This document shows positions 17,158 through 62,583 of a DNA stretch of 64,000 nucleotides, in pieces (position 1 is the first letter of the stretch; every line of letters starts with the position of its first letter). Origin of the DNA: an uncultured Bacteroidales bacterium. Its GTDB lineage: Bacteria; Bacteroidota; Bacteroidia; Bacteroidales; Paludibacteraceae. The position numbers and the translations under genes were made by a program. The DNA is taken from positions 1 through 64,000 of the forward strand of contig CAMJJT010000004.1 in NCBI GenBank assembly GCA_946406195.1, given 5' to 3'. The notes under the pieces are model-generated. The model was given only the letters and a program-made list of their open reading frames with translations, was not told the origin of the DNA and did no database searches.

Positions 17158-17160
17158 GTT

Positions 17161-17202
17161 CTGCCAAAGTGGCAGATGAAGACTGCCAAACGGGGTTTGG
17201 CA
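17161..17202. promoter_or_regulatory. Two tandem palindromes upstream of grpE-dnaJ
   Basis: CTGCCA-AAG-TGGCAG (17161-17175) and TGCCAAAC-GGG-GTTTGGCA (17184-17202); the CTGCCA copies start 22 bp apart. Confidence 0.55.
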
Positions 17203-17204
17203 TG

Positions 17205-17255
17205 GAAATTGGAAATTGATAATTGATAATTGATAATTGAGAATTAAGAATTAAG
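17205..17255 (+). repeat. AATTGATA/AATTGAGA short-period repeat in the grpE 5' region
   Basis: GGAAATTGGAAATTGATAATTGATAATTGATAATTGAGAATTAAGAATTAAG. Confidence 0.85.
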
Positions 17256-17257
17256 AT

Positions 17258-33249: not shown

Positions 33250-33393
33250 GTGAAAGAAGGAGCTAAAATTCCGAATAATTCTTGGGCTATTTTCTGCCCA
33301 AAATCAGCCTGACGTAAGCCTAACGACCCACTAATCACACACTAATCACCCACTAATCACCCACTCGAAGTGTGTTTTAACACTGTTTTTTTT
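33250..33393 (+). ncRNA. Candidate small RNA with internal hairpin, 11-nt x3 repeat and intrinsic terminator
   Basis: TTGGGC-TATTTTCT-GCCCAA hairpin; ACTAATCAC(A/C)C x3 at 33330-33362; AGTGT-GTTTTA-ACACT-G-TTTTTTTT. Confidence 0.5.
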
Positions 33394-33422
33394 CAGGGAA
33401 AGACCTGTTTGTGATATCGACA

Positions 33423-33456
33423 AAAAACAGCCCCGCAGGATTTGCGGAGCTGTTTT
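33423..33456. terminator. Bidirectional terminator
   Basis: AAAACAGC-CCCGCA..TGCGGA-GCTGTTTT with A- and T-tracts. Confidence 0.75.
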
Positions 33457-33483
33457 ATTATTGCGCATTAAGGCGCGGAGTAT

Positions 33484-33535
33484 ATTCGTACTCGTTATTC
33501 GTACTCGTTATTCGGGCTCGTTATGCGAGTACGTT
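33484..33535. repeat. 13-nt tandem repeat overlapping the stop codon of the minus-strand gene
   Basis: ATTCGTACTCGTT x2, ATTCGGGCTCGTT, ATGCGAGTACGTT. Confidence 0.9.
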
Positions 33536-44076: not shown

Positions 44077-44108
44077 TTTGCGTGTTTCAAAGAAAAATAT
44101 TAATTTTG
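44077..44108 (+). promoter_or_regulatory. Promoter of the 2437-aa surface protein
   Basis: TTTG-N20-TAATTTTG. Confidence 0.75.
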
Positions 44109-44219: not shown

Positions 44220-47200
44220 ATGAAAGATATGAAAGGTATAAAAATGATGGATAAGTTCGAACAATTGAGTAGCACTTGCCTCCGTTTTGCCTCCGTTTTG
44301 CCTCCGTTTTGCCTCCGTAAGCATAGTGTGCGACTGCTTCATTTCGTGGCAGTCATAGTTTTTCTGTTTATAGGCGGATGGAATAGTGAGGCTTGGGCTG
44401 ATGATTGTAAGTATTCGATTAGTAATAAGCATTCGAGCATTTCTACATACAAGTCTCATTCCAAAAGTGGTTGGTTCGATAGTGACAAGTATAAGTTTTA
44501 TACGAATAACGAAATAGGTTCTATCAATAACCAGTATGGAATTAGTAAGATTTATATTAAGGTGACCTTGGAGCGCATTGCTTTTGGTGCTGATTGTAAA
44601 GTAAAATTCCAATATAGAAATGCGTCTGGCTCGTGGAAAGATTTGACGACTGAAAAAGAGTTGGCTGGTTATTCTGCGGCAATCCCAACGAGTACTGCAG
44701 AGTGTAATTTATCAGGTGCAAGTATAACAAGTGAAATATCTGGCGCAACTGCATTCCGAGTTGTGGAGACTAAACAAGAAGAGTATTCGAGTAGTCGTAC
44801 AATTACCATTAATGATTTTTATGTGGTAATGGCAAAAACTTTGTCAGGCTCTACAGAAACGATGACTTTCTCGAATCAGACGTATAATACAACTAGTTCT
44901 GCGAAGACAAGAGAGTTTACTTTTAGTAATGAAGCGACAGGTAAGTCGATTACTATTTCTTCCAATACCAATAGTGCTGAGTTTCCCGCAACGATTACCA
45001 AATCTGGTGATTGTACAGGTTCTGTAACTGTAAGCGTTAAGTTTAAACCATCCGCGCAGGGTACGCGTAGCGGAAGTATTACGGTGTCCGGAGATTGCGG
45101 TTCTAAAACATTCTCAGTGTCTGGAACAGGTTTACGTGCGAACTCTTCGTTGGAAATGAATGATGGAGAAGTGAACGTAAGTATTGCAGGAATAAACTCG
45201 TCAAGTATAAATCTGAATGATCTTATTGGACCGAAAACCGGAAATGGTGGAGTTTCATACTCGGTTATAAGTGACAATAAATCTTTTGCAACGATTAGTG
45301 GAAGTACATTCTCTGCTACAAAATGTGGAAATTATACTATTCGAGCAACACAGGCTCAGACAGATCAGTATAATTCCAGTACAGATGAGTTTACTATAAC
45401 GGTTAATAAGTTGCAGCCGACGTTTAGTTGGACGAAGTTTGAGCATATTTATGCGAGTGATGTGTTAGAAAATGTGGCACAGGCAAAGTATAATGGGAAT
45501 AACGTTGACGGACTGAGTTATAGTTATAGTTCCGATAATAAAGTCGTTGTGGCAGATGGTACGAAGCTGCGCGTGCAGAATACATTTACAGGCGAGCATA
45601 ATGTGACCATCACTGTTACGACGGCAGAGACTGCCTATTATAAAGCAGGATCGGATACGCATGAGTATTTGATTGAGCCGAAAGCAACTCCGGAGTTCTG
45701 GTTGAATGAGGAAGTAAATCTGCCTGCAGATCCTGTGGTTTTAAATCTGTTTATCGGAGAGACGGCAGCGATGCGTTTTGTGAATACGAATGAGAGCAAT
45801 TTTCAGTATCCAACCTCTGCCTCTTATATCAGTTATTCGCATAATAGTGGAGACCATACGGGTGTGATTACCGGAAAAGTTGCAGGTAATGAGGTGATTC
45901 AGTTCCACCAAACGGGTACAACGACCATCTTTGATCACTCGCGTTCTATTCATGTGTATGTGAGCAAGCATCCTGTGAACCTGACGACCACCTTAGATGG
46001 CGGTACATGGAAAGTGGATAGCATTTATGACGGTGTTGTTTATTCAATTATTACGCCGACGGATGATCAGCCGGCATTGAGCGAGGTGAATGTGACTTCT
46101 TCGAACGAAGCCGTATTGAAGAAAGTAGATGGTCATTGGAAAGCGGTTGGCGAAGGCGTGGCTACGCTGACCATTTCTCACCCGAATACGAATGATTACT
46201 GGGTAGATCAGACGGTGACGGCTACTATTACAGTCGTAAAACATACGCCGGTAATCACTTGGAATTTGGATGCAAGTTATCCATGGGGCGCTATTATCGA
46301 GAGTCCTGTAAGTTCGTCCAATGAGGAGTTGCCGTTTACGGTTGTTTCTAATCATCCAGAGATTGCAAACTATGTAAATGGTCGTATTGAGGTATATAAT
46401 AAGGTCGGAAATGCAACTTTCACTCTTACACAGGCAGGCAACTATAAGTGGGCTGATGCTAATGCTAATCTTCAATTTTCCATTAATTCTTTCAAACCGC
46501 AGAACCATTTGCCGATGGATTTGAAAGCTGGCAATTATTCTCAATATAAGAGCTATGTAACAAGCAATGTGTCTTGGGCAAATAGTGGTGTGCAATGTGG
46601 AACAGCCGGTGGTGGATTTAACTGGGATGATAAATATATAGAGTTGCATTTTACAGGAGTTCCTAATCATTTGACTTTTGATTATAAAAACAACAATAAT
46701 GTCTTGGGAGATCATTCCGGGGTAGAGTGGTTTATTCAAACAAAGACTGAAAATGGAGAATGGAGTAGCAAGCAAACTTGGTCGGATGATAGTGGTTCCA
46801 AAGATTTTACTTTGAGTCCTGATGTAAGTTATGTACGTTTATGCTATAGTGGAAACTATGGAGGTTTATTTACCAATATCAAAATAACCGAGCGTCGCGA
46901 AGTATTGGCAACCCCGACATCATTGACTTTTGCGACGGCAGATGTAGATGCATCGGCTCAGACATTGCCGGTAAAGATTGAATGGTACAACGTGAAGACC
47001 TGTACTGCGACTATTGAGGGAGCTAATGCCGGATTCTTCCAATTGGCAGAGACCGAGCCTATTGCTGCGTCGCTGGATCATTTTGGGACAGAGGCTTTGC
47101 ATGTGACTTATGCTTATCCGCAAGCCGGTACGCATACTGCTACGCTGAAAGTAGAAAGTGAGGACGGGTATAAGGCAGAAGTACCTCTTTTGGCTACATC

Positions 47201-50200
47201 GCTGAAAGTAACTCCTGCTATTACATGGAAAGAGAACTTGAGTCCGATGTCTCGTGGCGAGAATGTAACTAATCCGGCTACTTCTCCTGTAACGTTGAGT
47301 TATAGTTCGTCCGATGAGACGGTAGTTGCAGTCGAAGGCAATGAGTTGAAACCGTTGAAGAAAGGCGAGGCTACAATAACCGCAAGTTTCGATGGCACTT
47401 CTGATTTGAAATGGAACTCCGCAAGCAGTACTATTGATGTAGTTGTAACGGATATGCATGTGCAGCATATCAATTGGCCGCAAACCTTTACCCGTCTCAA
47501 ATATACAACTGATCCTGCTTTAATGGAGAAGAATACAGAAGATTTCCCGTTAACGGCAACTGTTAGTTACTACGATTTGGATAATGAGGTTGAGGTCGCA
47601 TTAGACAGAACGATTACCTTTACCAGCGGCGATGAGAGCGTTGTGAAAGTGTTGGAGGGTAATATCCTTCACGTCGTTGGATTGGGTGAGACGACATTGA
47701 GCGCTCATGTTGAAGGCGTGGCAGACGAATATCTGGAAGCAACGGTAATTCGTAAAGTCAAAGTGCGTGAGCCGTCCACCGATTGCGATACCTATATCGT
47801 AGAAGATCAATCTGCTTCGATGGCAACCGGTGTTACATCGTTTACCGGAGAGCAGACGATAATAGATTTGCCGTATGAGCCGGGTTATGTGTCTTTCTCC
47901 GCATGGCGCGAAGCCATCCGTGTATTAGGTGTCAATTATACCAGCGGTGATTTGTACCTTGCACAGAATATCAACGGCCAATGGAGCAACGACTTGTGGC
48001 ATAACGGATTGGAAGTAGATAACTCGAAAGATTTCGGACCTATTGCCCTTGACCGTCACGCTACGCAAATCAAGATATATAAGAAAACCGGTTCTACTGG
48101 AATTCATGCCTTCTCGGATTGTAATGTAACTTTGGCTCGTTATTTGGAATTGGATAATACGGAAGGCAAGACTGAGATGGATATCTATTTCTCGACAGAA
48201 GATGCCAAACCGGGCGTAGCCAAGACGAAATCGTTTACGGTCAACTATTCGAATATCACCGACCAGTTGGTAGTTGATTTGAGCGGCTCGGATAAGTTCA
48301 GCGTTACTCCGACAACTATTGGCGAGGATTGTGGCGATAAAGGAAATGCAACGGTTCAAGTTACTTTCCTGTCGGATGATGTAGCTCATTATGAGGGCAC
48401 ATTGACGATTCATAATGAGAACCAATCGGTAACGGTACACCTTTCCGCCGATGTGGATAAGCACCATCAACAGATCACATGGAATCCGACAACAGCGTTG
48501 AAGACAACTGATGAGGTGACGTTTGATGCTACGACTTCGGCGGCAGCTGCCGGTCTGAGTGTGCGTTATGAGGTAGTAGAAGGCGATGCGGCTACGGTAA
48601 ATGCCGAGACAGGTGCGCTGACTATTATTAAGGATGGCGATGTGACGATCAAGGCAGCAGCGGCAGGTAATGCAAGTTATTATGATGCAGAGCCGGTAAG
48701 CAAAACCTTCAGTATCAGCAAAGTGACACCGGTGATTACGGTTGTACCGACGGCTGCTACTATGACATTGCCGAACACGAATTTGAGCGGTTGTGGATTG
48801 GCAGGCGGTGTGGCTTCCGTAGATGGTACTTTTGCATGGGAAGACAATACCATTAATGCTACTTTGAACAACGCAGGATATACGGTTATCTTCACGCCGG
48901 AGAACACGAATTGGTATAGCACGAATACGTGCATAGTAGTTGTGCCGGTGAACAAAACCGCACAAGCGATTGTATGGGACTTCGATCAGTTGGAGATGTT
49001 CTGTAATGCACAAGTTACCTTTGATGCGCACTCGAATTCCGGTTTGGCAGAGTTGCCGGTAAGTTATAGCTCGTCGGATGAGTCAATCGCTTATGTTGAC
49101 GGTAAAAATCACCTTAATATTATTCAAGGTGGCGAAGTGACCATTACTGCAACGCAAGCAGGGAATGATGTATATGCAGCGGCAGAGCCCGTGAGCAAGA
49201 CACTGACTATCAATCGTTTTGCACCGACTATCGTGACCCTGCCGAATGCTTCTACTATGAAGATCGGTCGTTCACTATCTGATGCTTCGTTGACAGGCGG
49301 TTTGGCAGAACTAGATGGTTTGGAAGTAGAAGGTTCGTTCGCTTGGTTAGATGGTAATACAACTGTGATGGATGTGGCAGGTACATTCTCCAAGCAGGTA
49401 GTATTCACACCGGCTAACACCAACTATTATGAGCCGGTATATGGAACAATGTCTGTTACCGTTGAGAAATATGCGCCGGAGATTGCGCAGAGTCTGCACG
49501 GATCGGATATTACTTATGGTCAGCCTTTGTCTGCTTCTAACCTGACAGGAACACTGACCGCAACGGATATTATTAAGATTCCGTCCGTGGAAGTGGAGGG
49601 TACGTTTGCATGGCTTCAACCGTCTGCCGTATTGAATGCAGGCAGCCAATCCGCTACGGTGCGTTTCACGCCGGCTAACATGGATTGGTATGAGGTGGTT
49701 GATTTCCCGGTTCAGCTGACCGTCAACAGAGCGACAGCAGATGGTTTGACCGTAACCGGTACCAGCGAGATATTCTATGGTCAGATCCTTGGTGAGGCTG
49801 TGCCTGTGAACACAACTGTTGATCCAATTCACGGCGGTGTGGTAGCCGGTACAATGGTTTGGAGTTCTTCTCTGAATCTGGATGAGTATATGGAGATTGG
49901 TTCTCATAACCTGTCGGTGACCTTTACCGTGAATGATCCGAATTATATCTCTGCTACTTTGGATGGAACAGCAGTCTTGACCGTACAAGCCGGTTATGTA
50001 TTTAACGGCAATGACGGACAGAGCAAGACTTGGGGTGAGGATACGAACTGGCAAGGAAAAGAGGCTCCGGACGGAAACGAGAAAGTGGTTATCTTGGCTG
50101 ATGTGGATATTGATTCGCCCGTTTCTGTGGATGCCATCACCATTAAGGAAGGTGTGACTGTGAGAGTCAAAGAAGGCGCTGTGTTAACCATCGGTAACAG

Positions 50201-51533
50201 CGATTCGTTTGTCCGCTCTTCCTATGGAAACTTGTATGTTGAGAATGGCGGTCAGGTGATCTTCGGCGAAGGTGAGATGAAGGTGAAAGATTTCGTTTTG
50301 GAGGCTCAGTTGGGCGATAATACAAATGCTAATCCTGCTTCTTCCGGACAGGTGAGCGGCGCTGAACAATTGAAGGTGACAGGCGATGCTTATTTCCGCA
50401 TCAGTTTTGATCCGCGTGGCGCTATAGATTATGGATGGTATGACTTCACCGTTCCGTTTGAGGTGGATGCATTGAACGGTGTGTATGACGCGAATGGTAA
50501 TAAATTGACCTATAATTCGGATTATGCCGTAATGGATTTCAGCGAAGAAAAACGTGCCGTAAACGGCAAATACTGGAACTGGTTCTCCGGGACTTTGCAG
50601 CCAAATAAACTCTATTCCATTACGTTTGATGATGAGAAGAACTGGAACACCTTCCTCTTTAAGCGCAAGTCGGTGACGGCAAACTTCGGAGGAGATGCTT
50701 ACAATGCTTCTTACACCAATAACGGCGAGACGAACGACCGCGGATGGAATGGTATGGGTAATGGTACAATGCGTCATTGCCAACTCAATAACCTTCCTGC
50801 ACAAACGAAGATTCAGGTTTATGATCATGCGAATGATCGTTATGTAGAGCGCGATGCAGATGAATATACATATGCAGTTGGTACCGCATTCTTTGTGCAA
50901 GTGGATGAGGAGAAAGAAATAGATTTGACGGCAGTGGAGGCAACACGTGGTTTCTTAGCTCCGGCACGTTATGAAGGACGTACATTCGATGAATTCCGTT
51001 TAGCACTCACTGCTGAGGAGGCAAATAATGTAGCAGATTATTTATGGGTTTCCGCAAGCGAAGAGGCAACGGGTGACTATGTGATTGGTCGCGACTTGAT
51101 TAAGATGGGTACTCCGACAAATGCGAAAGTGGCTCAGATGTGGACTACCAATAATGGTCTGACCCTCTGCGATATTGAGATGCCGCTTATTGCCAACAAG
51201 GCGAACACGAATGTATCTTTCTTCGCCCCGCAGAGTGGTCTCTACGAGATTGCAGTTGAGCGCGCTCCGGAAGATGCAACGCTGTACTTGACTAAGAACG
51301 GAAAAGTGGTCTGGAATCTCTCCATGAACCCCTGTGAGCTGAATCTGGAGAAGGGTACTACCGAAGGCTACGGTCTGCGTATTGTAGCTCGTGAACAGAC
51401 ACCTACCGATATTGAGAATGTAGATTCCTTCGGCTGCGAGAACGTACGCAAAGTGATGATTGATAATGTGATTTACATCGTTACTCCGGAGGGTAAGATG
51501 TACGATATCATAGGAAAAAGTGTAAAATATTAA
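44220..51533 (+). CDS. Giant secreted Ig-like/MBG-like repeat surface protein
   Basis: 2437 aa; repeated ITW...SSDESVA..I..GE.TITA..AGN..Y modules; signal segment LLHFVAVIVFLFIGGWNSEAWA; tail KVMIDNVIYIVTPEGKMYDIIGKSVKY. Confidence 0.85.
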   Translation: MKDMKGIKMMDKFEQLSSTCLRFASVLPPFCLRKHSVRLLHFVAVIVFLFIGGWNSEAWADDCKYSISNKHSSISTYKSHSKSGWFDSDKYKFYTNNEIGSINNQYGISKIYIKVTLERIAFGADCKVKFQYRNASGSWKDLTTEKELAGYSAAIPTSTAECNLSGASITSEISGATAFRVVETKQEEYSSSRTITINDFYVVMAKTLSGSTETMTFSNQTYNTTSSAKTREFTFSNEATGKSITISSNTNSAEFPATITKSGDCTGSVTVSVKFKPSAQGTRSGSITVSGDCGSKTFSVSGTGLRANSSLEMNDGEVNVSIAGINSSSINLNDLIGPKTGNGGVSYSVISDNKSFATISGSTFSATKCGNYTIRATQAQTDQYNSSTDEFTITVNKLQPTFSWTKFEHIYASDVLENVAQAKYNGNNVDGLSYSYSSDNKVVVADGTKLRVQNTFTGEHNVTITVTTAETAYYKAGSDTHEYLIEPKATPEFWLNEEVNLPADPVVLNLFIGETAAMRFVNTNESNFQYPTSASYISYSHNSGDHTGVITGKVAGNEVIQFHQTGTTTIFDHSRSIHVYVSKHPVNLTTTLDGGTWKVDSIYDGVVYSIITPTDDQPALSEVNVTSSNEAVLKKVDGHWKAVGEGVATLTISHPNTNDYWVDQTVTATITVVKHTPVITWNLDASYPWGAIIESPVSSSNEELPFTVVSNHPEIANYVNGRIEVYNKVGNATFTLTQAGNYKWADANANLQFSINSFKPQNHLPMDLKAGNYSQYKSYVTSNVSWANSGVQCGTAGGGFNWDDKYIELHFTGVPNHLTFDYKNNNNVLGDHSGVEWFIQTKTENGEWSSKQTWSDDSGSKDFTLSPDVSYVRLCYSGNYGGLFTNIKITERREVLATPTSLTFATADVDASAQTLPVKIEWYNVKTCTATIEGANAGFFQLAETEPIAASLDHFGTEALHVTYAYPQAGTHTATLKVESEDGYKAEVPLLATSLKVTPAITWKENLSPMSRGENVTNPATSPVTLSYSSSDETVVAVEGNELKPLKKGEATITASFDGTSDLKWNSASSTIDVVVTDMHVQHINWPQTFTRLKYTTDPALMEKNTEDFPLTATVSYYDLDNEVEVALDRTITFTSGDESVVKVLEGNILHVVGLGETTLSAHVEGVADEYLEATVIRKVKVREPSTDCDTYIVEDQSASMATGVTSFTGEQTIIDLPYEPGYVSFSAWREAIRVLGVNYTSGDLYLAQNINGQWSNDLWHNGLEVDNSKDFGPIALDRHATQIKIYKKTGSTGIHAFSDCNVTLARYLELDNTEGKTEMDIYFSTEDAKPGVAKTKSFTVNYSNITDQLVVDLSGSDKFSVTPTTIGEDCGDKGNATVQVTFLSDDVAHYEGTLTIHNENQSVTVHLSADVDKHHQQITWNPTTALKTTDEVTFDATTSAAAAGLSVRYEVVEGDAATVNAETGALTIIKDGDVTIKAAAAGNASYYDAEPVSKTFSISKVTPVITVVPTAATMTLPNTNLSGCGLAGGVASVDGTFAWEDNTINATLNNAGYTVIFTPENTNWYSTNTCIVVVPVNKTAQAIVWDFDQLEMFCNAQVTFDAHSNSGLAELPVSYSSSDESIAYVDGKNHLNIIQGGEVTITATQAGNDVYAAAEPVSKTLTINRFAPTIVTLPNASTMKIGRSLSDASLTGGLAELDGLEVEGSFAWLDGNTTVMDVAGTFSKQVVFTPANTNYYEPVYGTMSVTVEKYAPEIAQSLHGSDITYGQPLSASNLTGTLTATDIIKIPSVEVEGTFAWLQPSAVLNAGSQSATVRFTPANMDWYEVVDFPVQLTVNRATADGLTVTGTSEIFYGQILGEAVPVNTTVDPIHGGVVAGTMVWSSSLNLDEYMEIGSHNLSVTFTVNDPNYISATLDGTAVLTVQAGYVFNGNDGQSKTWGEDTNWQGKEAPDGNEKVVILADVDIDSPVSVDAITIKEGVTVRVKEGAVLTIGNSDSFVRSSYGNLYVENGGQVIFGEGEMKVKDFVLEAQLGDNTNANPASSGQVSGAEQLKVTGDAYFRISFDPRGAIDYGWYDFTVPFEVDALNGVYDANGNKLTYNSDYAVMDFSEEKRAVNGKYWNWFSGTLQPNKLYSITFDDEKNWNTFLFKRKSVTANFGGDAYNASYTNNGETNDRGWNGMGNGTMRHCQLNNLPAQTKIQVYDHANDRYVERDADEYTYAVGTAFFVQVDEEKEIDLTAVEATRGFLAPARYEGRTFDEFRLALTAEEANNVADYLWVSASEEATGDYVIGRDLIKMGTPTNAKVAQMWTTNNGLTLCDIEMPLIANKANTNVSFFAPQSGLYEIAVERAPEDATLYLTKNGKVVWNLSMNPCELNLEKGTTEGYGLRIVAREQTPTDIENVDSFGCENVRKVMIDNVIYIVTPEGKMYDIIGKSVKY
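44276..44317 (+). repeat. 11-nt tandem repeat TTTTGCCTCCG (about 3.8 copies) between start codon and signal segment
   Basis: TTGCCTCCG TTTTGCCTCCG TTTTGCCTCCG TTTTGCCTCCG. Confidence 0.95.
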
Positions 51534-51843: not shown

Positions 51844-53064
51844 TTATCTTAGGTTCTTTGCCCAGCGGCGTAGATACGCGAGCCACTCTTCAGCGGTACG
51901 AGCCACGGGATGGTTTTCTTTGGTGGCACCGACCACTGTCAGGAAGAAGTGACAGTGGTTGTTTGCGGCTTCGCCTGTTTGAGGGTTTGACGGACGATGT
52001 CCGTTAGTTTGAGGGTTGAATTTTAAGAGGCAGAGGTTGTTTTGCTTATCGTGAACGAGGGAACCGGCATATTCCTTTGGGATAAAGACGGCGAGACCGA
52101 CGGTCTCTTTGGCGTACTTGGCGGAGTCGTTCACAGGCCAATCGGTACCAAAGGACACTAAGAGTGTCCCATTTGGTAATTGGAGATTGAAGATTGAAGA
52201 TTGAGAATTATTTCCAAGTCCTATGGTACCATCGGGTAAAACTATGGTGTCTGTAGGCCAGCCGCCCTTCGCAGGAATGGTCTGTACGCCTGTGCAGAGG
52301 CCTTCTACCGCCTCGCTAAGGCTGACATCGCAACGCATATCACGATGTCCCGCTTGCATGGTGTATTGGACGGACATATTATGGCCTCTCCCGTCCTCCC
52401 CTAAAGGGGAGGAGATGGGTTTCCAACCTTTGACGGCGACTTCGATGGTGGCACTATTCTTCGTTTGTTTAACAATGCGCTGAGAACGAGAGGCAACTTT
52501 GTCAAAGTGGCAAAGTTTGCCTGTTTGGGCATTCTGCCCTGTTTGAAGGTTTGCGGCTTCGCCTGTTTGAAGCGTTTGCCAGTACTTGACAGAACCGACA
52601 CCGACGGTACCGGAGACTCGGAGAACGTCATCGCCGTAACCGGCAGCGAGCAGGCTGTCATTGGGGTACCAGTGGCTTTGGGCAAGCTCGAGCTGCGGTT
52701 TACGTTTGCAATAGGGATCGATAGTCTGTTTCTTATCGAAATAGATGCGGTACGCCATGAGTTCGGACTCCACCGCTACGCCATGGTGGTGGAGCTCATG
52801 ATAGGTATCATGAGATTTGAGATTTGAAATTTGAGAATTGAGATTTATGGTATCATGCCACTCGGTGATCGGATAGCAATGACGCATTTTTTTGCCCTCA
52901 TAGAGGACGGCGTAACCCTCTTTGGTCGAATCGGCAGGAGTTCCGATTCGCCAGAAAGAGGTGGCTACCCGCGGGGCGCAGCCCGCGAGTAACCAGACCG
53001 CTACGCTCAAAGTCAAAAGACCGCTTACGCTCAAAGAAGAAAGAGTATTAATTAATCGTGACAT
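51844..53064 (-). CDS. DUF4861-like lipoprotein with repeat-encoded insertions
   Basis: Lipobox LLAGC; YRIYFDKKQTIDPYCKR..GYGDDVLRVSGTVGVGSVKYW..; next to GH28. Confidence 0.65.
   Translation of the reverse strand: MSRLINTLSSLSVSGLLTLSVAVWLLAGCAPRVATSFWRIGTPADSTKEGYAVLYEGKKMRHCYPITEWHDTINLNSQISNLKSHDTYHELHHHGVAVESELMAYRIYFDKKQTIDPYCKRKPQLELAQSHWYPNDSLLAAGYGDDVLRVSGTVGVGSVKYWQTLQTGEAANLQTGQNAQTGKLCHFDKVASRSQRIVKQTKNSATIEVAVKGWKPISSPLGEDGRGHNMSVQYTMQAGHRDMRCDVSLSEAVEGLCTGVQTIPAKGGWPTDTIVLPDGTIGLGNNSQSSIFNLQLPNGTLLVSFGTDWPVNDSAKYAKETVGLAVFIPKEYAGSLVHDKQNNLCLLKFNPQTNGHRPSNPQTGEAANNHCHFFLTVVGATKENHPVARTAEEWLAYLRRWAKNLR
51957..52580. repeat. Word repeats inside the DUF4861-like gene, including a 22-bp exact copy pair
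   Basis: GTTTGCGGCTTCGCCTGTTTGA at 51961-51982 and 52549-52570; also GGAGATTGAAGATTGAAGATTGAGAATT near 52183-52210. Confidence 0.88.
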
Positions 53065-54586
53065 TTTCTACAGTCGGGGCGAGCGAGAAGGCTTCGCCCT
53101 TCTCGGCTTGGATATTCACATTATTGATGATGAGACCGTTGGTCTGGCGGAAGAGAGCTCCTTCGGTAGCAGACATAGTGACGTTGCGGAGTGTCACATT
53201 CTGGATTTTCATCTCCGGCAGACCGTTGAAATAGATAGCACGTTTGATATTTGCTCCCTTGACGTTCTCAATGACGATGTTCTTGAATGCCGGTGTCTCT
53301 TCGCTGGCTTCCGGAGCCTCGGCGTTCATACGAGCCGCGAGTTCTTCTTCGGTCTCTTCACCAGCGCCCTTACCGCCGTAGAAGAGGTCAAAGAGGAGAC
53401 CTTCGTTCGGGATATTGACCATGTTCACGCCGTTGATGTAGATATTCTCTACTACACCGCCACGACCGCGTGTGGATTTGAAACGCAGACCGACATCGGT
53501 ACCGATATAGAGGTTGTTGCGCACCTCGACATTCTTGATGCCGCCGGACATTTCCGAACCGCAGACGAAACCTCCGTGTCCGTGATACACAACGCAGTCA
53601 TCGACGACTACGTTCTCCGTCGGGATTCCGCGGTCACGACCGGGTTTGTCCTTGCCGGACTTCATGCAGATGGCATCATCACCGACGTCGAAGGAACAAC
53701 GGCTGATTACTACGTTCTTGCAGGACTCGACATCGACACCATCTCCGTTCTGGCTGTACCACGGGTTGCGGACATTGAGGTCACACAGAACGAGGTTCTC
53801 GCAGCACATCGGGTGGAGGTTCCAAGCCGGGCTGTTCTCAAACGTAACGCCCTCCAAGAGGATATTCTTACATCCTACAAAATGCAGGAGAACAGGGCGG
53901 AGGAAAGATTTAACGACCTGCCAGAGGCTGTCGTCTTCGATAACCGGCACGTTCTGATCAAGGCAGTAACTCTGCGCCAGCAGCGAAGCGCTATCCGGAT
54001 ACCAGATATCATTAGCTACGATACCGCCTTTCTCCTTGAGGTGTTTCTTCCATTGCCCCGGAGCCATCTTGGATTTCTTGAGCGGTCTCCACCAATCGCC
54101 GTTACCATTGAACGTACCATAACCGGTGATAGCGATATTCTCTGCGTCGCGTGCATTGAGCGGGCTGGTGCAACGCTTGGTCGGGATGCCCTCAAACCAC
54201 TCGTCGTAGATTTTATAGAGATCGAGGTCGTGCGAGAAGACGATGAAGGAGTTCTTCTCGGTGTACAGCCGTACGTTCGATTTCAGAGTGATCGGTCCGG
54301 TGGTGTAGATACCCTCTGGGATGATGACGGTACCGCCTCCGGCAGCCGTACAGTCATCAATGGCATTCTGGAAAGCCTCGGTGGACAACTCTACGCCGGT
54401 GTTATCCGCGCCGTAGCTCAGTACATCGTACGTGCGACCGGGGAAAGAGGGCAGCTTGACCTTCGGCATAGCGAACGAAGCGCCTTTGGTCAGACGGTCA
54501 ATCTCACGCTGCGATGTGGTTTGATACTCTGGCGAACAAGCGCCGAGGATGGCTGCGATAAGCAGCAAAAATGAAAAGTTTTTCAT
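53048..54586 (-). CDS. Glycoside hydrolase family 28 (polygalacturonase-like) lipoprotein
   Basis: YDVLSYGADNTGVELSTEAFQNAIDDCTAAGGGTVIIPEGIYTTGPI..WYSQNGDGVDVESCKNVVISRCSFDVGDDAICMKSG..VYHGHGGFVCGSEMSGG. Confidence 0.93.
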   Translation of the reverse strand: MKNFSFLLLIAAILGACSPEYQTTSQREIDRLTKGASFAMPKVKLPSFPGRTYDVLSYGADNTGVELSTEAFQNAIDDCTAAGGGTVIIPEGIYTTGPITLKSNVRLYTEKNSFIVFSHDLDLYKIYDEWFEGIPTKRCTSPLNARDAENIAITGYGTFNGNGDWWRPLKKSKMAPGQWKKHLKEKGGIVANDIWYPDSASLLAQSYCLDQNVPVIEDDSLWQVVKSFLRPVLLHFVGCKNILLEGVTFENSPAWNLHPMCCENLVLCDLNVRNPWYSQNGDGVDVESCKNVVISRCSFDVGDDAICMKSGKDKPGRDRGIPTENVVVDDCVVYHGHGGFVCGSEMSGGIKNVEVRNNLYIGTDVGLRFKSTRGRGGVVENIYINGVNMVNIPNEGLLFDLFYGGKGAGEETEEELAARMNAEAPEASEETPAFKNIVIENVKGANIKRAIYFNGLPEMKIQNVTLRNVTMSATEGALFRQTNGLIINNVNIQAEKGEAFSLAPTVENVTIN

Positions 54587-54603
54587 GAATATAAAATTAT
54601 AAA

Positions 54604-55350
54604 TTATGAAATAAAAATTGTTTCGGGGTATTTGATTTCTATTAATGATAATCCTTCTGCGGGAGCGGAATGTCCTGCTTGGCAGCGGTTACGGGCAGCA
54701 ATGATTTCTCCGAATTGAGTTTCAGTTATTTTATGTTTCCCGACCTCAAAGAGTGTGCCTACCACAGCGCGAACCATATTACGCAGGAATCGATCCGCGG
54801 TGATGACAAAATATGCCTCGGTATCGTTCTCTTGCACCCATCGTGCCTCTTTGACATCGCAGATGGTGGTCCTCACATCGGTGTGCGCGCGGCAGAAAGA
54901 AGCGAAATCCTGTTTGCCCAGCAGCAAGCGTGCCGCGTTGTTCATCGCCTCGAAATCCAGCCCGGATGTGACGCGCGCGTGCGTTATATAAAGGAAAGGA
55001 TCTTTGCGAGTGGTGATTCGGTAGCGGTAGGTGCGAGCGGTAGCATCAAAACGCGCGTGGGCATAGTCCGTTACGGGGCGAAGATTGCTGACGGCGATCG
55101 AGGGCGGCAACAGGTTGTTCAGTCGTCCGCATAGATTGGAGGGCAGTGTGCTCTGCCAGTCGAAATGCGCTACCATCTTCTCTGCATGCACACCAGCGTC
55201 GGTGCGACCGGCAAAAGTGAGAAAAACGGGTTCGCGCAGGATAGTAGCGAAAGCAGTCTCCATTTCTGCTTGCACCGTCTGTCCATTCGGCTGCGTCTGT
55301 GAGCCGTGGAAATCCGTTCCGTTATATGAGAATGTTATGAAGTAACGCAT
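54604..55350 (-). CDS. truA: tRNA pseudouridine(38-40) synthase TruA
   Basis: FSYNGTDFHGSQTQPNGQTVQ..FAGRTDAGVHA..RFLRNMVRAVVGTLFEVG. Confidence 0.95.
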   Translation of the reverse strand: MRYFITFSYNGTDFHGSQTQPNGQTVQAEMETAFATILREPVFLTFAGRTDAGVHAEKMVAHFDWQSTLPSNLCGRLNNLLPPSIAVSNLRPVTDYAHARFDATARTYRYRITTRKDPFLYITHARVTSGLDFEAMNNAARLLLGKQDFASFCRAHTDVRTTICDVKEARWVQENDTEAYFVITADRFLRNMVRAVVGTLFEVGKHKITETQFGEIIAARNRCQAGHSAPAEGLSLIEIKYPETIFIS

Positions 55351-55401
55351 TGTAATTGACGATTTGACGATTTACGATGTACGATTTATTTACGATTTTA
55401 A

Positions 55402-56916
55402 TTAATTGGCGATTTTTCGAGATTTCGAGATTACGAGATCACGAAGGGTTTTGTTGATTTCAGGCGAGAGCTCTGCTTTGTAGGCGATGAGTGCTCCGCC
55501 GCCGATGAGTACTAAACTGCGGAGCAGACTGTCTGCCCAGATATTCATCGTCGGTGCAAACCGGCTCCATAGCGCATTGACTCCAAAGAGCACTACCAAA
55601 AGCGCCAAGATAGTCCACCATCGCCGGTCAATCACGCTGATCCGGCAGAGCGGCACTACGGTGCAGATGGTCAGCACATAATACAGCCCGTACGACAGCA
55701 GATTGCTCATCGCGGCTCCGTTCATGCCGTAACGGGGCACCAGATAATTATTGAGCAACAACGCAGAGACGGTCAGCACAAGCGACATCAGAAGACTGAA
55801 CGCATAGAACCGACTGTAGTTCAGCGCGGTGTAACAGATAGTGAATGTCCCCAAAATCAATTGGCTGACACCCAAGATAAGCACTACATTTTTCGCCTGA
55901 GCGAAGGTAGCGCCATTTGGCAAAATATGGAAAATAAGGTCTATATTCACCCACATGGCTAATAAGATGAATCCGCCGATGAGGAGCATGTTCCGCGTGA
56001 CTTGGCTGATGAGATGGCTGCATTCCTCGCGGTTTTGTTCCTTGATAGCGCGCGCTAATTGGGGCGAAGCGATCGCCGAGACGGAGCGGTTAGGGATGCT
56101 GACCATCACTGCCATATAGGTTGCGATGGCGAAGATACCGGTGTTGTTCAGTCCCATCTTGGCGGTCACGAAGAACGAGGATAGAGTAGGAGCCAAAACC
56201 GATGTGAGGGCAGAGATGAAGAGGAAACCCGTGTAGATGAGATAGCGACGCACGAGGTCTGTGTTCGCGCGAAGGAAGGTCCAGTCGGGGCGCAAAGAGA
56301 TATGCCGGAGCGAGAAAAAATAGATGATGTTAATCATCGCAGCCGCGGCATAGTTGAGGCAAATACCGATGACCAAACCGTCTATGGAAAGCACCTTAAA
56401 GGCATATAGCAGATAGATTGCCAACAGCCCGACACGCACGATCAGTTCACGCACCGCACGCGGCACAACGATATGCATCAGCACATTGCAGGTACTCTCG
56501 CAAATCGTTTGATAGAGCATAAAGAAGGCAATCGGAAGAACGAAATAATAATACTCCACGAAGAGCGGTGATTTATCACCGAACCATTCTCCGAGAGGAA
56601 CCCGGCATGCCCAGTAGATAACCGCAAAAAGGATAAAACCGATGAAAGGCACGACGAGCGCCCAGAAGAAGAATCCATGGTCGTCGTCGCTTTCTTTTTC
56701 CTTAAAATACGGGTAGAAACGGATAATAGAGGCGTTGGTGCCAAGTTGTGCCAAGCCGATGAACAGAGTAGCCGCATCAATAAGCACCCGCGTCAACCCG
56801 ATTTCCTCGGTGGTGAGGAAACGGGTTAACACGAAGAACGTGGTGACAACACCTACGGCGATGCCCAGATAAGTCACTATCGTACCACGAATCGATTGCT
56901 TAGCGATGACGCCCAT
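55402..56916 (-). CDS. Polysaccharide flippase-like (MOP/Wzx) membrane protein
   Basis: 12+ TM segments, RGTIVTYLGIAVGVVTTFFVLTRFLTTEEIGLTRVLIDAA. Confidence 0.8.
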   Translation of the reverse strand: MGVIAKQSIRGTIVTYLGIAVGVVTTFFVLTRFLTTEEIGLTRVLIDAATLFIGLAQLGTNASIIRFYPYFKEKESDDDHGFFFWALVVPFIGFILFAVIYWACRVPLGEWFGDKSPLFVEYYYFVLPIAFFMLYQTICESTCNVLMHIVVPRAVRELIVRVGLLAIYLLYAFKVLSIDGLVIGICLNYAAAAMINIIYFFSLRHISLRPDWTFLRANTDLVRRYLIYTGFLFISALTSVLAPTLSSFFVTAKMGLNNTGIFAIATYMAVMVSIPNRSVSAIASPQLARAIKEQNREECSHLISQVTRNMLLIGGFILLAMWVNIDLIFHILPNGATFAQAKNVVLILGVSQLILGTFTICYTALNYSRFYAFSLLMSLVLTVSALLLNNYLVPRYGMNGAAMSNLLSYGLYYVLTICTVVPLCRISVIDRRWWTILALLVVLFGVNALWSRFAPTMNIWADSLLRSLVLIGGGALIAYKAELSPEINKTLRDLVISKSRKIAN

Positions 56917-56920
56917 CTTG

Positions 56921-57058
56921 AGATTTACGATTTTACGATTTACGATTTACGATTGATTTACGAGTTTTGTTTATTTACGATTTTACGCTGCGGACAATTG
57001 TCAATTATTCTCAATCGTCCATCAATCGTACCTCGTCAATCGTCCATTCGTCAATTAT
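56921..57058. repeat. Dispersed intergenic repeat, copy 1
   Basis: TTTACGATT words followed by GTCAATTATTCTCAATCGTCCATCAATCGTACCTCGTCAATCGTCCA; 47 bp identical to copy 2. Confidence 0.92.
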
Positions 57059-58299
57059 TTAATCTCCAGCAACTCCACCGTAAAGATCAGGGCTGCGTAT
57101 GGTGGGATAGACTGACCTGCGCCGCGCTCACCGTAACCGAGCTCATACGGGATGTAGAGCTTGTATTTGGACCCTACCGGCATGAGTTGTAGACCTTCGG
57201 TCCATCCTTTGATGACACCATTGAGCGGGAACTCAATCGGTTCGCCGCGTTGGTACGAACTATCAAAGACGGTTCCGTCAATGAGGGTACCCTCATAATG
57301 CACTTTGACGGTTTGTGCTGCGGTCGGTTTCGGACCTTTTCCAAGCGTTAGAACCTCATACTGCAGACCGGATTCGGTTACTTTGACCTCCTCGCGCAGC
57401 GCGTTCTCTTGCAGGAATTTCTCTCCTTCAGCTTTCGCTTCGCCGAATTTCATACGAGCTACAACAGTCTCTACATACTGACCGGCTGTCTGCATATCCA
57501 TCTGCTCGGTGTAGTTATACAAACCGTTGATGAAGCCTTGTTTGATCAGGTCGAAATTAGTCTCCAGACCGGAGATGCCCAGCAGACCTACGGGCTCCTG
57601 CTCGCGAATGGCTTTACCAACGTTCTTACCCATCGCTACGATCTGCGGGTTACGGACGTTCTGCTTGAGCCCCTTGTTGACGTTCTCCAAGAACTCTTCC
57701 ATAGCGCTTCCATCTTCATCTTCCGCCAAGAGATACATCTTGATCTGCGCGCCGTTGAGGACACCGAAAGCGTAGTTGAGCGAATCATTATAAGTGTTCA
57801 GTGCTACTGTCTGCGCCTCTTTCGGACATTTAGCTTTGATGGGGTCGCCGGCTTTTCCCTCTGCCTGCGCCTGATATGCCTGCATGAAGAACTCCTGAGC
57901 TGCCTCTTCGGTCATCATCGTGGTGTCGCCGTGCATCGCATTGACCATTCCTTGGAAATACAATTTCTCGTTTACAGTCCATGCCGAATTGTCAGCCAAA
58001 CCGTTTTTCTCAAATCCTTTGACCGATGCACCAAGTTGACGACCTGCCTGAGCGATCTCGCTCAGTTGCTCATCTTTGTCCATGTACGCATTCTCCAGCG
58101 CATCAACGAATTCTGCTACTGCCTCGTCGCTGCTGTCGTTAGCCATGTAATACATCTTAACCTGCAAACCGTTCAACAGACCTACAGCGTAGTTAATCGA
58201 ATCTGCCTCATTATTCAGCGTCACTTCTTGCGCTTTGTAACTATTGCCGCAGGAAACCATAGCTAATGCGGCAAGCATAAAAATACTAATCTTTTTCAT
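57055..58299 (-). CDS. FKBP-type peptidyl-prolyl isomerase lipoprotein (start revised from 58374 to 58299)
   Basis: [20 protein letters not shown] lipoprotein signal; C-terminal [84 protein letters not shown]. Confidence 0.92.
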
Positions 58300-58337
58300 A
58301 AATTTAAATTCATTTAAATTTCTGGAGCTTCGGCTGC

Positions 58338-58368
58338 GTCGAGTTGCGTAAGCGAGCTTACACTCGAC
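58338..58368. promoter_or_regulatory. Strong intergenic hairpin between the two FKBP genes
   Basis: GTCGAGT-tgc-GTAAGC-ga-GCTTAC-ACTCGAC. Confidence 0.6.
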
Positions 58369-58392
58369 TTGCACGAACCTTCATTTTTGTTA

Positions 58393-58977
58393 TTATTCGA
58401 TTCCCAATAGTTCTACCGTGAAGATGAGGGCTGCGTACGGGGGAATTGACTGACCTGCGCCGCGTTCGCCGTAAGCCAACTGGTACGGGATGAAGAATTT
58501 GTACTTCGATCCGATTGACATGAGTTGCAGACCTTCGGTCCATCCTTTGATAACGCCGTTCAGCGGGAAAGAGATCGACTCGCCGCGTTTGTATGAACTG
58601 TCGAAAACAGTACCGTCAATGAGCGTTCCTTCATAATGAACGCGTACGGTGTCAGTAGCTTTTGGTTTCTGACCGAGCGACGGCTCCAGAATTTCGTACT
58701 GCAGACCCGATTCGGTCACTTTGACACCTTCGCGCTTTGCGTTCTCGGCGAGGAACTTCTCTCCGTCAGCTTTAGCTGCTCCGGCGATTTTCTGCTCCAA
58801 CTCTTGGAAGAACGTGTTCAGCACTTGTTGTGCCTCTTGATAACTGATCTTGGGTTGTGCGTGAGTCAGCACGTCTTCAATACCTGCTGCAAGATCCTGA
58901 TAGTTCAGTTTCTCTACACCGCTACCCATTAAGTTTTGTCCCATTGAGAGACCTAATGCATAACTAATTTTGTCCAT
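58393..58977 (-). CDS. FKBP-type peptidyl-prolyl isomerase
   Basis: [84 protein letters not shown]. Confidence 0.93.
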   Translation of the reverse strand: MDKISYALGLSMGQNLMGSGVEKLNYQDLAAGIEDVLTHAQPKISYQEAQQVLNTFFQELEQKIAGAAKADGEKFLAENAKREGVKVTESGLQYEILEPSLGQKPKATDTVRVHYEGTLIDGTVFDSSYKRGESISFPLNGVIKGWTEGLQLMSIGSKYKFFIPYQLAYGERGAGQSIPPYAALIFTVELLGIE

Positions 58978-59005
58978 AAAGTCATTTATTTATTTGTTCA
59001 TTTTC

Positions 59006-59659
59006 TTATTTCTTCATTTGGCTCATTTGCGAGAGATACCGCGCCATGTATTTGCCAAGGATGTCGAACTCGATGTTCACCACCGTGCCGGCTTCGATGT
59101 ATTTGAAGTTGGTGTTCTCTTCGGTGTACGGGATGATGCACACGGAAACGTAGCCTTTGTTGCCTTGGATATCCGGTTCGCAGGCGGTCAGGCTGACACC
59201 ATTGATGGTCACAGAACCTTTGTCCACGCAGAAATAGCCACGCTCCACCATCTCTTTGGTTGAGTCATACTCAAAGCGGTAGTACCAACTGCCGTCGGTC
59301 TCATGCGCATCGACACAAACGGCTTTCTGGTCCACGTGACCTTGCACGATGTGTCCGTCCAACCGACCGCCCATCATCATCGAGCGCTCCACATTCACCC
59401 AATCGCCCTCTTTCAACAGGTCCAGATTGGTCAGACGCAGCGTCTCCTGCATCGCCGTAACAGTATATACATTTACCATTTCACCATTTACCATTTGGTC
59501 ATTTGTCTTCACCACCGTCAGACACACGCCGTTATGGGCAATCGACTGATCGATACTCAACGGTTCGCCGAAAGGGTTGCGAAGCGTGAAATGTTTATTC
59601 GTTTGCTCGGTCTCTATCTTCACGACCTGAGCCATAGTTTCTACAATTCCTGAAAACAT
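59006..59659 (-). CDS. ribE: Riboflavin synthase (alpha chain) with repeat-encoded insertion
   Basis: MFSGIVETMAQVV..QSIAHNGVCLTVVK..YTVTAMQETLRLTNL..GGRLDGHIVQGHVD..GSVTINGVSLT. Confidence 0.94.
   Translation of the reverse strand: MFSGIVETMAQVVKIETEQTNKHFTLRNPFGEPLSIDQSIAHNGVCLTVVKTNDQMVNGEMVNVYTVTAMQETLRLTNLDLLKEGDWVNVERSMMMGGRLDGHIVQGHVDQKAVCVDAHETDGSWYYRFEYDSTKEMVERGYFCVDKGSVTINGVSLTACEPDIQGNKGYVSVCIIPYTEENTNFKYIEAGTVVNIEFDILGKYMARYLSQMSQMKK
59470..59510. repeat. TTTACCATTT word repeat inside ribE
   Basis: ATTTACCATTTCACCATTTACCATTTGGTCATTTG encodes (minus strand) NDQMVNGEMVN. Confidence 0.85.
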
Positions 59660-59695
59660 AAATCTATTTTCTTATTTGTTCATTTTCTTATTTAC

Positions 59696-61165
59696 TCATT
59701 TCTTGAAGTAATTGCCCACCACAGGTAGTCCGCTAAGCGGGAAATCGCGACGGGTCATTTTTATGATATACACCCCGATAAAGAATGTTCCTATCGCCAT
59801 GAGTACCCACATATTCAAATCGAAATAATGGCGTATGTAGTAATATACCGCTAATAATCCGAAAGTCAGCAGGGTATATTGGCCGATGGATTTCATGTCA
59901 TAGGGAATCGGGGCTTTTTTCTGACCGATGAAATAGGACAGAAGCATGATCACGAAATAGCATACCAGACTACTGCCGCAGGATGCCCAATAACCAATCA
60001 ACGGCACTCCTACGATCTGGAGCACTAAAGTGATACCTAAGCCGATCAACGAGAAATAGGCTCCCCATTTGGTCTCGTCCGTCAGTTTGTACCAAAACGA
60101 GAGATTGAAATAGATACCCTGGAAAACATACGTCCATAGCACTACCGGCACGATCTTCAAGCCCTCCCAATAAGCGCTCGAGACGATGTACCGGAAGATA
60201 TCCAGATAGAAGATCACACCCAGCAGAATCAAATACGAGAAGATGATGTAGTACTTCATTGCGTCAGCGTACGCTTCGACGGACTGACGGTCTTTGTGTT
60301 TCGCGAACACAAAAGGTTCATAAGCGTATCGGAAAGCCTGCGTGAACATCATCATCACCATCGCCACCTTGAAGCACGCTCCGTAGATACCGAGTTGTGC
60401 CTGTGCATCTTCGCCTGTGTAGAGATAAGGGAAAAGGATGCGATCCAGCGTCTGGTTCATGATTCCGGCAACACCCAACACCAAGAGCGGCAAGGAGTAG
60501 CGGAGCATCTCTTTAAGCACTGTTCCATCAAAATGTCCGTCTCGCGGCATCGTGAACGGCAGCAGACAAAGGGTCTGGATGGTCGTTGCTAAGATGTTAC
60601 TGAGGAACACATAGAACACATCGTTCTTGCCTAAAACCACCAAAAAGAGGATGTTAAAGCCGATGTTCAGCAGTACAAATAACAACTTCAGCGCCGCAAA
60701 CACCATCGGTCGTTTTTGGTAACGCAGGTACGCAAAGGGGATAGAGGAAAACGCGTCCAAGGCTACCGTAACCGCCATCATCGCAATGAACTCCGAGTGG
60801 CCCGTATATCCCAAGACGTTCGCTATCGGCTGGCGGAAAAGCACCACCATTAGCGCAAAAAGAGCGCTGGTGCTAAAGAGCGTCAGAAAAGCAGTCTTAT
60901 AGACATCCTTAGCCACGTAGTCCTCGCGGTTGGCAAAACGGAAAAAACCCGTTTCCATGCCGTAGGTCAGAATCACTAACAGCAGTGCCGTCCAAGCGTA
61001 CAGGTTGGTCACAATTCCATAATCCTCCGTCCGCGCCAGTACGTATGTGTACAACGGCACTAACAGGTAGTTAAGAAACTTACCTATTATCGAACTCAGA
61101 CCATAGATGGCGGTGTCCTTCGCCAAGGATTTCATCGAGTTATTTACCATTTTGTCATTTACCAT
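59696..61165 (-). CDS. Polysaccharide biosynthesis flippase-like (MOP/Wzx) membrane protein
   Basis: LAKDTAIYGLSSIIGKFLNYLLVPLYTYVLARTEDYGIVTNLYAWTALLLVILTYGMETGFFRFA. Confidence 0.83.
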   Translation of the reverse strand: MVNDKMVNNSMKSLAKDTAIYGLSSIIGKFLNYLLVPLYTYVLARTEDYGIVTNLYAWTALLLVILTYGMETGFFRFANREDYVAKDVYKTAFLTLFSTSALFALMVVLFRQPIANVLGYTGHSEFIAMMAVTVALDAFSSIPFAYLRYQKRPMVFAALKLLFVLLNIGFNILFLVVLGKNDVFYVFLSNILATTIQTLCLLPFTMPRDGHFDGTVLKEMLRYSLPLLVLGVAGIMNQTLDRILFPYLYTGEDAQAQLGIYGACFKVAMVMMMFTQAFRYAYEPFVFAKHKDRQSVEAYADAMKYYIIFSYLILLGVIFYLDIFRYIVSSAYWEGLKIVPVVLWTYVFQGIYFNLSFWYKLTDETKWGAYFSLIGLGITLVLQIVGVPLIGYWASCGSSLVCYFVIMLLSYFIGQKKAPIPYDMKSIGQYTLLTFGLLAVYYYIRHYFDLNMWVLMAIGTFFIGVYIIKMTRRDFPLSGLPVVGNYFKK

Positions 61166-61172
61166 GTACGAT

Positions 61173-61841
61173 CTATTCCTTTCCTGCCACGCAGATCACT
61201 ATTTCACCTTTCGGTGGTGTTTGTTGAAAATGCTTTATCAGTTCCGCGAGGGTGCCCCGAACGGTCTCTTCGTGCACTTTGCTGATCTCGCGGGTCACAC
61301 TTGCCTTGCGTTCTTCGCCGCATACCTGCGCCAACTGTTCAAGCGTCTTCACCAACCGGAAGGGCGACTCATAGACGATGAACGTCTCGTCCAGCGCTGC
61401 CAGATACTGCAACCTTGTCTGCCGCCCTTTCTTCTGCGGCAGGAAGCCCTCGAAATAGAAATGGTTGTTCGGTAGACCGCTATCCACCAACGCTGGCACA
61501 AAAGCCGTTGCACCTGGCAAACACTGTATCTCAATCCCTGCTTCGGCTGCGGCTCTCGTCAAGAAGAACCCCGGATCACTAATCGCCGGCGTACCGGCGT
61601 CGGAGATCAACGCAATGTTGGCACCCGCTTTCAGCCGCTCTACGATGTCCGCAGAGGTCTCATGCTCATTGAACTTATGATGGCTCTTCAGCGGTGTATG
61701 GATGTCGAAATGCTGCAACAGAATACCGCTGGTACGCGTATCTTCCGCTAAAATCAGATCGACTGATTTCAGCGTTTCTATCGCGCGGAACGTCATGTCC
61801 TGCAGATTGCCCACCGGTGTCGGAACGATGTATAACATCAT
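61173..61841 (-). CDS. rsmI: 16S rRNA (cytidine(1402)-2'-O)-methyltransferase
   Basis: LYIVPTPVGNLQDMTFRAIETLKSVDLILAEDTRTSGILLQHFDIHTPLKSHHKFNE..ALISDAGTPAISDPGF. Confidence 0.95.
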   Translation of the reverse strand: MMLYIVPTPVGNLQDMTFRAIETLKSVDLILAEDTRTSGILLQHFDIHTPLKSHHKFNEHETSADIVERLKAGANIALISDAGTPAISDPGFFLTRAAAEAGIEIQCLPGATAFVPALVDSGLPNNHFYFEGFLPQKKGRQTRLQYLAALDETFIVYESPFRLVKTLEQLAQVCGEERKASVTREISKVHEETVRGTLAELIKHFQQTPPKGEIVICVAGKE

Positions 61842-61844
61842 TTA

Positions 61845-61979
61845 TATTTACGATTTTATCATTTACGATTTACGATTTATTGACGAGTTTTATTTATTTA
61901 CGATTTTGTGTGGTGGACAATCGTCAATTATTCTCAATCGTCCATCAATCGTACCTCGTCAATCGTCCAATCGTCAATC
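61845..61979. repeat. Dispersed intergenic repeat, copy 2
   Basis: Same order of words; 47-bp exact core at 61923-61969 equals 57000-57046. Confidence 0.92.
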
Positions 61980-61982
61980 TTT

Positions 61983-62546
61983 TTATCCGAATCTTCTGTG
62001 CAGCGTCACGATGAACTGCTGATACGAGTTACTCTCGGTGTCCCATTGGAAATGTTTGCCGATATACTCCATCGCCTCGTCGAACGAACTCAAAGCGTTC
62101 AGCTCGGTCAGGGTACGTTGCATCAGTTCGGCGTTCTGACCAAAGAGTTCACGTTGGTACAAGAACCGATCGCCCAGCGAGATGGCCTGGCGGATGTCAT
62201 CCACCGCCTTGCCATATACGGCGGCTTTGGGAGAGGCCGTTTCTTGGGGCTCCTCAACCGCAGGCTCTTCTTTCGCAGGCTCCTCCTCTACCGCGGGAAC
62301 TTCCGGAGTTTCGGGAATCACCGGTTCCGGCTCCTTCGTGATTTCGGTATCACGTGATTCCGGAATCTCGATGGGTTTCTCGACAACAGGAGCCGGTATT
62401 TCGACGATCTTTTCAACGACCTTCTCTACCACTTTCTCTACCACTTGCGGCTCAGGTAACGGACGGTTTTTCAACTCCGCTACCTCAGCCTCCAATGTGG
62501 CGATTCGAGCCTCTAATTGTTCAAAATATTTAATTACTTCTTCCAT
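61983..62546 (-). CDS. Hypothetical protein with coiled-coil start and Glu/Pro/Val repeat region
   Basis: MEEVIKYFEQLEARIATLEAEVAELKNRPLPEPQVVEKVVEKVVEKIVEIPAPVVEKPIEIPE.. Confidence 0.7.
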   Translation of the reverse strand: MEEVIKYFEQLEARIATLEAEVAELKNRPLPEPQVVEKVVEKVVEKIVEIPAPVVEKPIEIPESRDTEITKEPEPVIPETPEVPAVEEEPAKEEPAVEEPQETASPKAAVYGKAVDDIRQAISLGDRFLYQRELFGQNAELMQRTLTELNALSSFDEAMEYIGKHFQWDTESNSYQQFIVTLHRRFG

Positions 62547-62583
62547 AGTTTTCGACTAATGACTAACGACTAACGACCAACGA

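Follow-up and report, generated by a model that had tools for sequence, protein, structure and literature searches.

The locus and its tandem array

The window, by which we mean the whole stretch of 64,000 nucleotides that was analysed and in which positions are counted below, carries on its forward strand an open reading frame (ORF) for a protein of 2437 aa. Judging from its signal peptide, its size and the family to which it belongs, this product is probably a surface protein. Searches of Pfam and NCBIfam gave no family above cut-off for the 2437-aa protein, and a weak match to choice-of-anchor D reached 25 bits against a cut-off of 45. Its C-terminal residues, from about 2037 to 2437, recur in many giant proteins of the genus, where a genome has several paralogues. 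A second very large protein of the secreted type is encoded elsewhere in the window (3345-aa ORF, 5329-15366) and has a match to the Listeria-Bacteroides repeat domain (Flg_new). The features of the locus are as follows.

44077-44080 and 44101-44108, + strand: promoter-like pair TTTG and TAATTTTG, 20 nt apart, proposed from reading the sequence
44220..44249, + strand: cluster of in-frame start codons (ATG 44220, 44229, 44244 and 44247), read from the sequence
44229..44327, + strand: translated leader MKGIKMMDKFEQLSSTCLRFASVLPPFCLRKHS, an open frame that is conserved among homologous leaders
44262..44277, + strand: element head CAATTGAGTAGCACTT, also found in the leader copies of other species
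44276..44318, + strand: 11-nt tandem array, detected by TRF and as a lag-11 run
44328..44330, + strand: GTG, in frame, a possible alternative start
44328..44399, + strand: signal peptide VRLLHFVAVIVFLFIGGWNSEAWA, from the translation, with an end that matches those of relatives
44220..51533, + strand: ORF of the giant, probably secreted or surface protein of 2437 aa
50328..51530, + strand: C-terminal region of about 400 aa, common to many paralogues and to relatives in the genus

The consensus of Bacteroidetes promoters is a -33/-7 pattern, and the TTTG/TAATTTTG pair matches it. Together with the gene content, this pattern suggests a Bacteroidales-like gut lineage. The ATG at 44229 lies within a leader start that is common to relatives (AAATTTAAGGTTATGAAAGATATG in the window and AAATTTAAGGTTAAAAAAGATATG in L062, with similar starts in L065 and L122), and the end of the signal peptide resembles FLLFLGGWNSEAWG and FLLLLGGWNSQAWG of the relatives L063 and L076. 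Part of the element head, either GTAGCACTT or GCACTT, is also present in intergenic copies of the element.

An earlier note on this DNA had described an 11-nt repeat, open in all three frames, between the candidate start codons and the hydrophobic signal segment, and our analysis agreed with this anatomy. TRF reported (TTTTGCCTCCG)n with a period of 11, 3.9 copies and a 100% match at 44276-44318, and the longest lag-11 run of the window (32 nt) is located at this array. The GCCTCCG cores stand at 44278, 44289, 44300 and 44311 and are separated by TTTT spacers, and the array can be translated in all three frames (CLRFASVLPPFCLR). All of the candidate ATGs are 5' of the array, the hydrophobic segment is 3' of it, and there is no in-frame ATG between them. 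Structure in the RNA was considered as the cause of the repeat and was dropped (folding z-score of -0.56).

The two alternative frames meet stop codons soon after the array, at 44324 and 44356, so that a change of one unit would yield a truncated product. The same note had gone further and stated that such a change would abolish the 7.3-kb gene product. The early stops are in favour of this statement, but a complete loss is not certain, since the GTG at 44328-44330 is in frame and 3' of the array, and initiation at this codon alone would give a full signal peptide (MRLLHFVAVIVFLFIGGWNSEAWA) and may rescue the protein.

Leaders of related giant proteins

We gathered the starts of related genes through C-terminal matches and through a query made of the leader and the signal peptide, neither of which demands an in-frame start. 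Each species was represented by one consensus genome, many of which are incomplete, and the window's own genome is G000. In many of the related giants, a leader of 20-130 aa separates the conserved start from the signal peptide. Among the 61 related leaders that measure 30 nt or more, TRF detected tandem arrays in 35, and the best period was 11 in 30 of these 35, with many unrelated units (for example GACGGTCAACC, GAGCAYCCGAT, CGCTACCCTTG and AATCACCCGCA). Period 11 was found in 25 of 167 intergenic arrays of G000 (691 kb, taken as stretches), and comparison of the leader arrays with these intergenic arrays showed an enrichment of period 11 in the leaders (Fisher p ~8e-16). When 23 non-redundant leaders were compared with codon shuffles, an excess was observed at lag 11 (z=15) and at lag 22 (z=9), while no such signal was seen in the 150-nt stretches that precede the start and follow the signal peptide, or in ordinary genes.

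The reading frame at the start of homologous leader pieces was the same in 118 of 121 alignments, which are not mutually independent, and both ends of the pieces agreed in frame in 113 of the 121. In 2649 leader codons, frame +1 contains 200 stops and frame +2 contains 176. That the used frame has no stops is a matter of construction, which does not dictate leader length, and with so many stops in the other frames a low stop density does not explain the long open leaders. The pooled pN/pS of the leaders was 0.74, with similar substitutions at codon positions 1, 2 and 3, and no codon periodicity was seen (lag 3 not raised). A start finder based on base composition placed 45 of 64 starts in frame, which is above one third but noisy; because of this noise, the conserved leader starts and the homologous alignments were used.

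It is very improbable that the start of the 2437-aa protein is GTG 44328 and that the array lies in a 5' untranslated region. Such a start would suffice for a complete signal peptide, and the lack of codon periodicity would agree with it, but the frame kept in homologous alignments, the long open leaders and the conserved in-frame leader starts all argue for translation, as does the start finder within its noise. By these comparisons between species, the leader was shown to be a translated one in which the frame is conserved and the amino acids are nearly free.

An extra N-terminal stretch before the signal peptide is known as the ESPR (PF13018) in proteins of type V secretion (PMC8151025). 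The leaders of the genus resemble it in that they, too, extend the N-terminus of very large secreted proteins ahead of a signal peptide of the ordinary type. They differ from it in that the ESPR is a conserved segment of 25 residues, whereas the genus leaders are of varied length, reaching about 130 aa, and are near neutral in sequence. PF13018 had no match in the window protein at E values up to 0.5.

Several other members of the collection are of note. L147, an M6 peptidase-like protein whose start is not in frame, was excluded as unrelated. At L262 (G072:C31), a gene made of a leader and a signal peptide ends right after the signal peptide and is either truncated or decayed, and a second leader gene of the family is located close downstream. 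In L228-L257, proteins that differ in their downstream sequences have in common the signal peptide K[HY]VAMIFAVLVMSIANIGMAWG and such leader modules as SNPDGQPTVNRQSRLMS, which suggests an exchange of 5' ends between paralogues.

A dispersed element with a GCCTCCG core

The window array, minus one unit, recurs in intergenic DNA of G000 (C2:73485-73515), which makes it a dispersed repeat that is not peculiar to the gene of the 2437-aa protein. Further related arrays of this genome were found at C1:75540, C28:26179 and C3:78566. At the last of these (L105, 18566 on), a 333-aa ORF begins inside a degenerate GCCTCCG array and its hydrophobic N-terminal segment follows directly.

When up to two mismatches were allowed, the array family was found in 27 genomes in a genus search of 178 species, while the strict three-core pattern was present in 8 of the 178 genus genomes and, in a sample of 394 genomes of the order, in the window's own genome only. 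The exact pattern of the window array gave one unrelated match in GTDB contigs outside the genus and none in viral contigs. Horizontal spread of the array was dropped as a candidate, because the scans beyond the genus gave only this unrelated match. On the evidence of these searches, the 11-nt array family is genus-restricted, dispersed and mostly intergenic.

The intergenic DNA of G000 (691 kb sampled) is rich in short arrays with periods of 7, 8 and 11 nt and their multiples. Regions of this type in the window are located at 16742-17433, 33326-33524 and 52179-62586, and an 11-nt array, ACCCACTAATC, lies at 33326-33365. LSSR(5-11) (Mrazek 2007, as described in PMC4679880) are long simple repeats with units of 5-11 nt in scattered genomes; they include the intergenic heptamer arrays of cyanobacteria and Beggiatoaceae, and where they occur in coding sequence, their unit lengths are mostly divisible by three (PMC4679880). 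The arrays of the genus are like them in their units of 7, 8 and 11 nt, in being dispersed and mostly intergenic, and in their sporadic, lineage-specific distribution. The window array is also longer than chance in the sense of LSSR(5-11), since lag-11 runs of at least 31 nt have a chance expectation of ~1e-14 in the window. The arrays of the genus depart from LSSR(5-11) in that the 11-nt period dominates a translated leader, with the frame conserved.

Comparison of 47 near-matches from other genomes, retrieved in a search that was seeded with the window sequence itself, showed that 64 of 90 mismatches fall inside the 4-nt spacer. This concentration defines the unit as a 7-nt core, GCCTCCG, followed by a variable spacer of 4 nt. 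As judged by eye, there is a tendency for the copies of one genome to have a common spacer (TTTT in G000, AGTT or AGAT in G169, TATT or TATA in G162), and the leader copy and the intergenic copies carry the same spacers in G000 and in G169. Many GCCTCCG copies are found just upstream of genes, in both orientations. In L207, L213 and L223 (G165, G169 and G189), a GCCTCCG array occupies an equivalent place upstream of one and the same TrpB-like gene (MSKQKRFLLDESELPRQWYNIQADM) in the three species; two of these arrays have TGTT spacers and one has AGTT, in each case the spacer that the genome uses elsewhere.

Direct repeats of 7 bp separated by 4-bp spacers are the sites to which regulators of the OmpR/PhoB type bind, trimers and tetramers included (PMC4832192), and the tandem 7-bp core and 4-bp spacer of the GCCTCCG element have the same architecture. 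The direct repeats could be operators of such a tandem-binding regulator, with one copy having come to lie inside the leader, an explanation that we consider improbable. The 7+4 arrangement, the concentration of mismatches in the spacer, the within-genome agreement of spacers between leader and intergenic copies and the position of many copies directly upstream of genes would all suit operators. However, most leaders bear quite different 11-nt units, so that a single regulator cannot explain the period, and the orientation relative to genes is mixed. The mismatch count comes from a search seeded with the window sequence, and the element is also unlike known OmpR/PhoB operators in having copies inside coding leaders, genome-specific spacers and no known regulator. 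The likeness, which is an analogy of architecture, is best treated as a lead.

Stability of the window array between species and its proposed growth

The homologous leader (...EQLSSTCLRSAS...) is in frame in G142, G071, G146, G199, G032, G152 and G144, and the repeat head and the signal peptide are equally far apart in the eight species, that of the window and these seven others. The units of the window array are perfect while the homologous arrays of other species are degenerate, which points to a recent homogenisation and hence to some turnover. Differences of three units (33 nt) were observed between L063 and L076 and between L238 and L239; gap lengths in global alignments are noisy for three-unit steps, and only these two clear pairs are claimed. 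The number of units was unchanged between the related species of L241/L248 and of L080/L130. Among the leaders examined, none was out of frame with an 11-nt array alone. L261 (G140:C30), with an open frame of 40 aa, was rejected as an out-of-frame allele, being a stray intergenic copy without a giant gene.

Contingency (phase-variable) loci made of simple sequence repeats are known in Haemophilus and Neisseria, and the earlier note had proposed the window array as such a locus, in which slippage of the 11-nt units would turn the 7.3-kb gene on and off. The anatomy fits this proposal: like those loci, the array is a non-triplet repeat near the start of a surface gene, its perfect units stand between the start and the signal peptide, and the other frames stop early. 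The comparative evidence shows no switching and points to stability instead. Array length and frame are identical in eight species, copy number is unchanged in the two pairs of related species, and no out-of-frame case was seen for the 11-nt array among the leaders examined. With four units only, the array also differs from known contingency loci in its few units, its long unit and a length that is conserved between species, and a loss of frame could be rescued by GTG 44328. An ON/OFF switch at the window array is thus possible but unsupported, and we hold contingency to be a rather unlikely explanation; the repeat is better described as a stable feature that species have in common than as a demonstrated on/off switch.

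The explanation that we prefer, with slightly better than even confidence, is that the array is a part of the translated pre-signal leader, which grows by 11-nt steps and is selected for frame, and not a programmed switch. Leaders would lengthen through 11-nt duplications or through the capture of dispersed 11-nt arrays, and frame-breaking changes would be removed by selection, with the result that the number of units would shift in threes (33 nt). The leader itself would be a tolerated extension of, or a spacer on, the signal peptide. A slip of one unit would turn the 2437-aa protein off, unless GTG 44328 rescues it, and such slips would be rare or selected against. The stop codons in AT-rich 7-nt units may explain in part why the leaders have periods of 11 and not the 7 or 8 that are common in intergenic DNA.

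As a rule, genes avoid repeats with non-triplet units in their interior, since these disrupt the frame. Throughout this genus, such repeats stand in a translated stretch immediately ahead of the export signal in the largest surface proteins, with the frame kept and the amino acids nearly free. The leaders offer a testable case for the origin of 11-nt duplications, for the choice of 11 over 7 or 8 and for any effect of a long, variable extension on export. No description of 11-nt leaders was found in the literature searched, a scope that had most subscription journals outside it.

Poly-C and poly-G runs in the leaders of sister genes

The start was out of frame with the signal peptide in L127 (G014:C4, with a run of C9), in L308 (G077:C8, also with C9) and in L270 (with G8). 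Runs of C or G of at least 8 were found with the start in frame in L128, L303, L304, L306, L316, L326, L327, L329, L330 and others, and many of the sister leaders have C8 in frame, as opposed to the C9 of L127 and L308. L270 (G000:C23, ~23254, minus strand) encodes a 2545-aa paralogue in which the start is separated from the signal peptide by the G8 run as well as by an 11-nt GACGGTCAACC array, and it is a candidate OFF allele. The poly-G matches of L277, L290 and L300 come from membrane proteins of another kind and were excluded from the count.

In this comparison, which is made across species and on consensus assemblies, the poly-C and poly-G runs of the sister leaders look like contingency loci. 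Their presence in and out of frame, at the same place as the window array, is a further likeness to known contingency loci and makes switching in the family plausible. It supports the leader position as a site of contingency without proving the 11-nt array as such. The members with these runs are candidates for phase variation among the surface proteins of a group that is apparently uncultured.

A broader reading than the growth of a frame-selected leader by 11-nt steps is that the genus builds translated pre-signal leaders from 11-nt arrays irrespective of their sequence, that the unit is recognised or copied by some process or protein acting in trans, and that the leaders are a platform where 11-nt arrays and poly-C or poly-G runs tune or switch the giant proteins. 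On this reading, the arrays of coding leaders and those of intergenic DNA would change in concert inside each genome, which would call for recognition or copying in trans. We put it forward tentatively, as a possibility on the doubtful side.

A leader module GCGAAT...(A)C8 recurs in L128, L124, L303, L304, L327 and L329. In L128, GTAGGGGCTTCGC follows the C8, which places the C run inside a GCGAA/TTCGC inverted repeat. The module looks like another dispersed element that leaders have captured.
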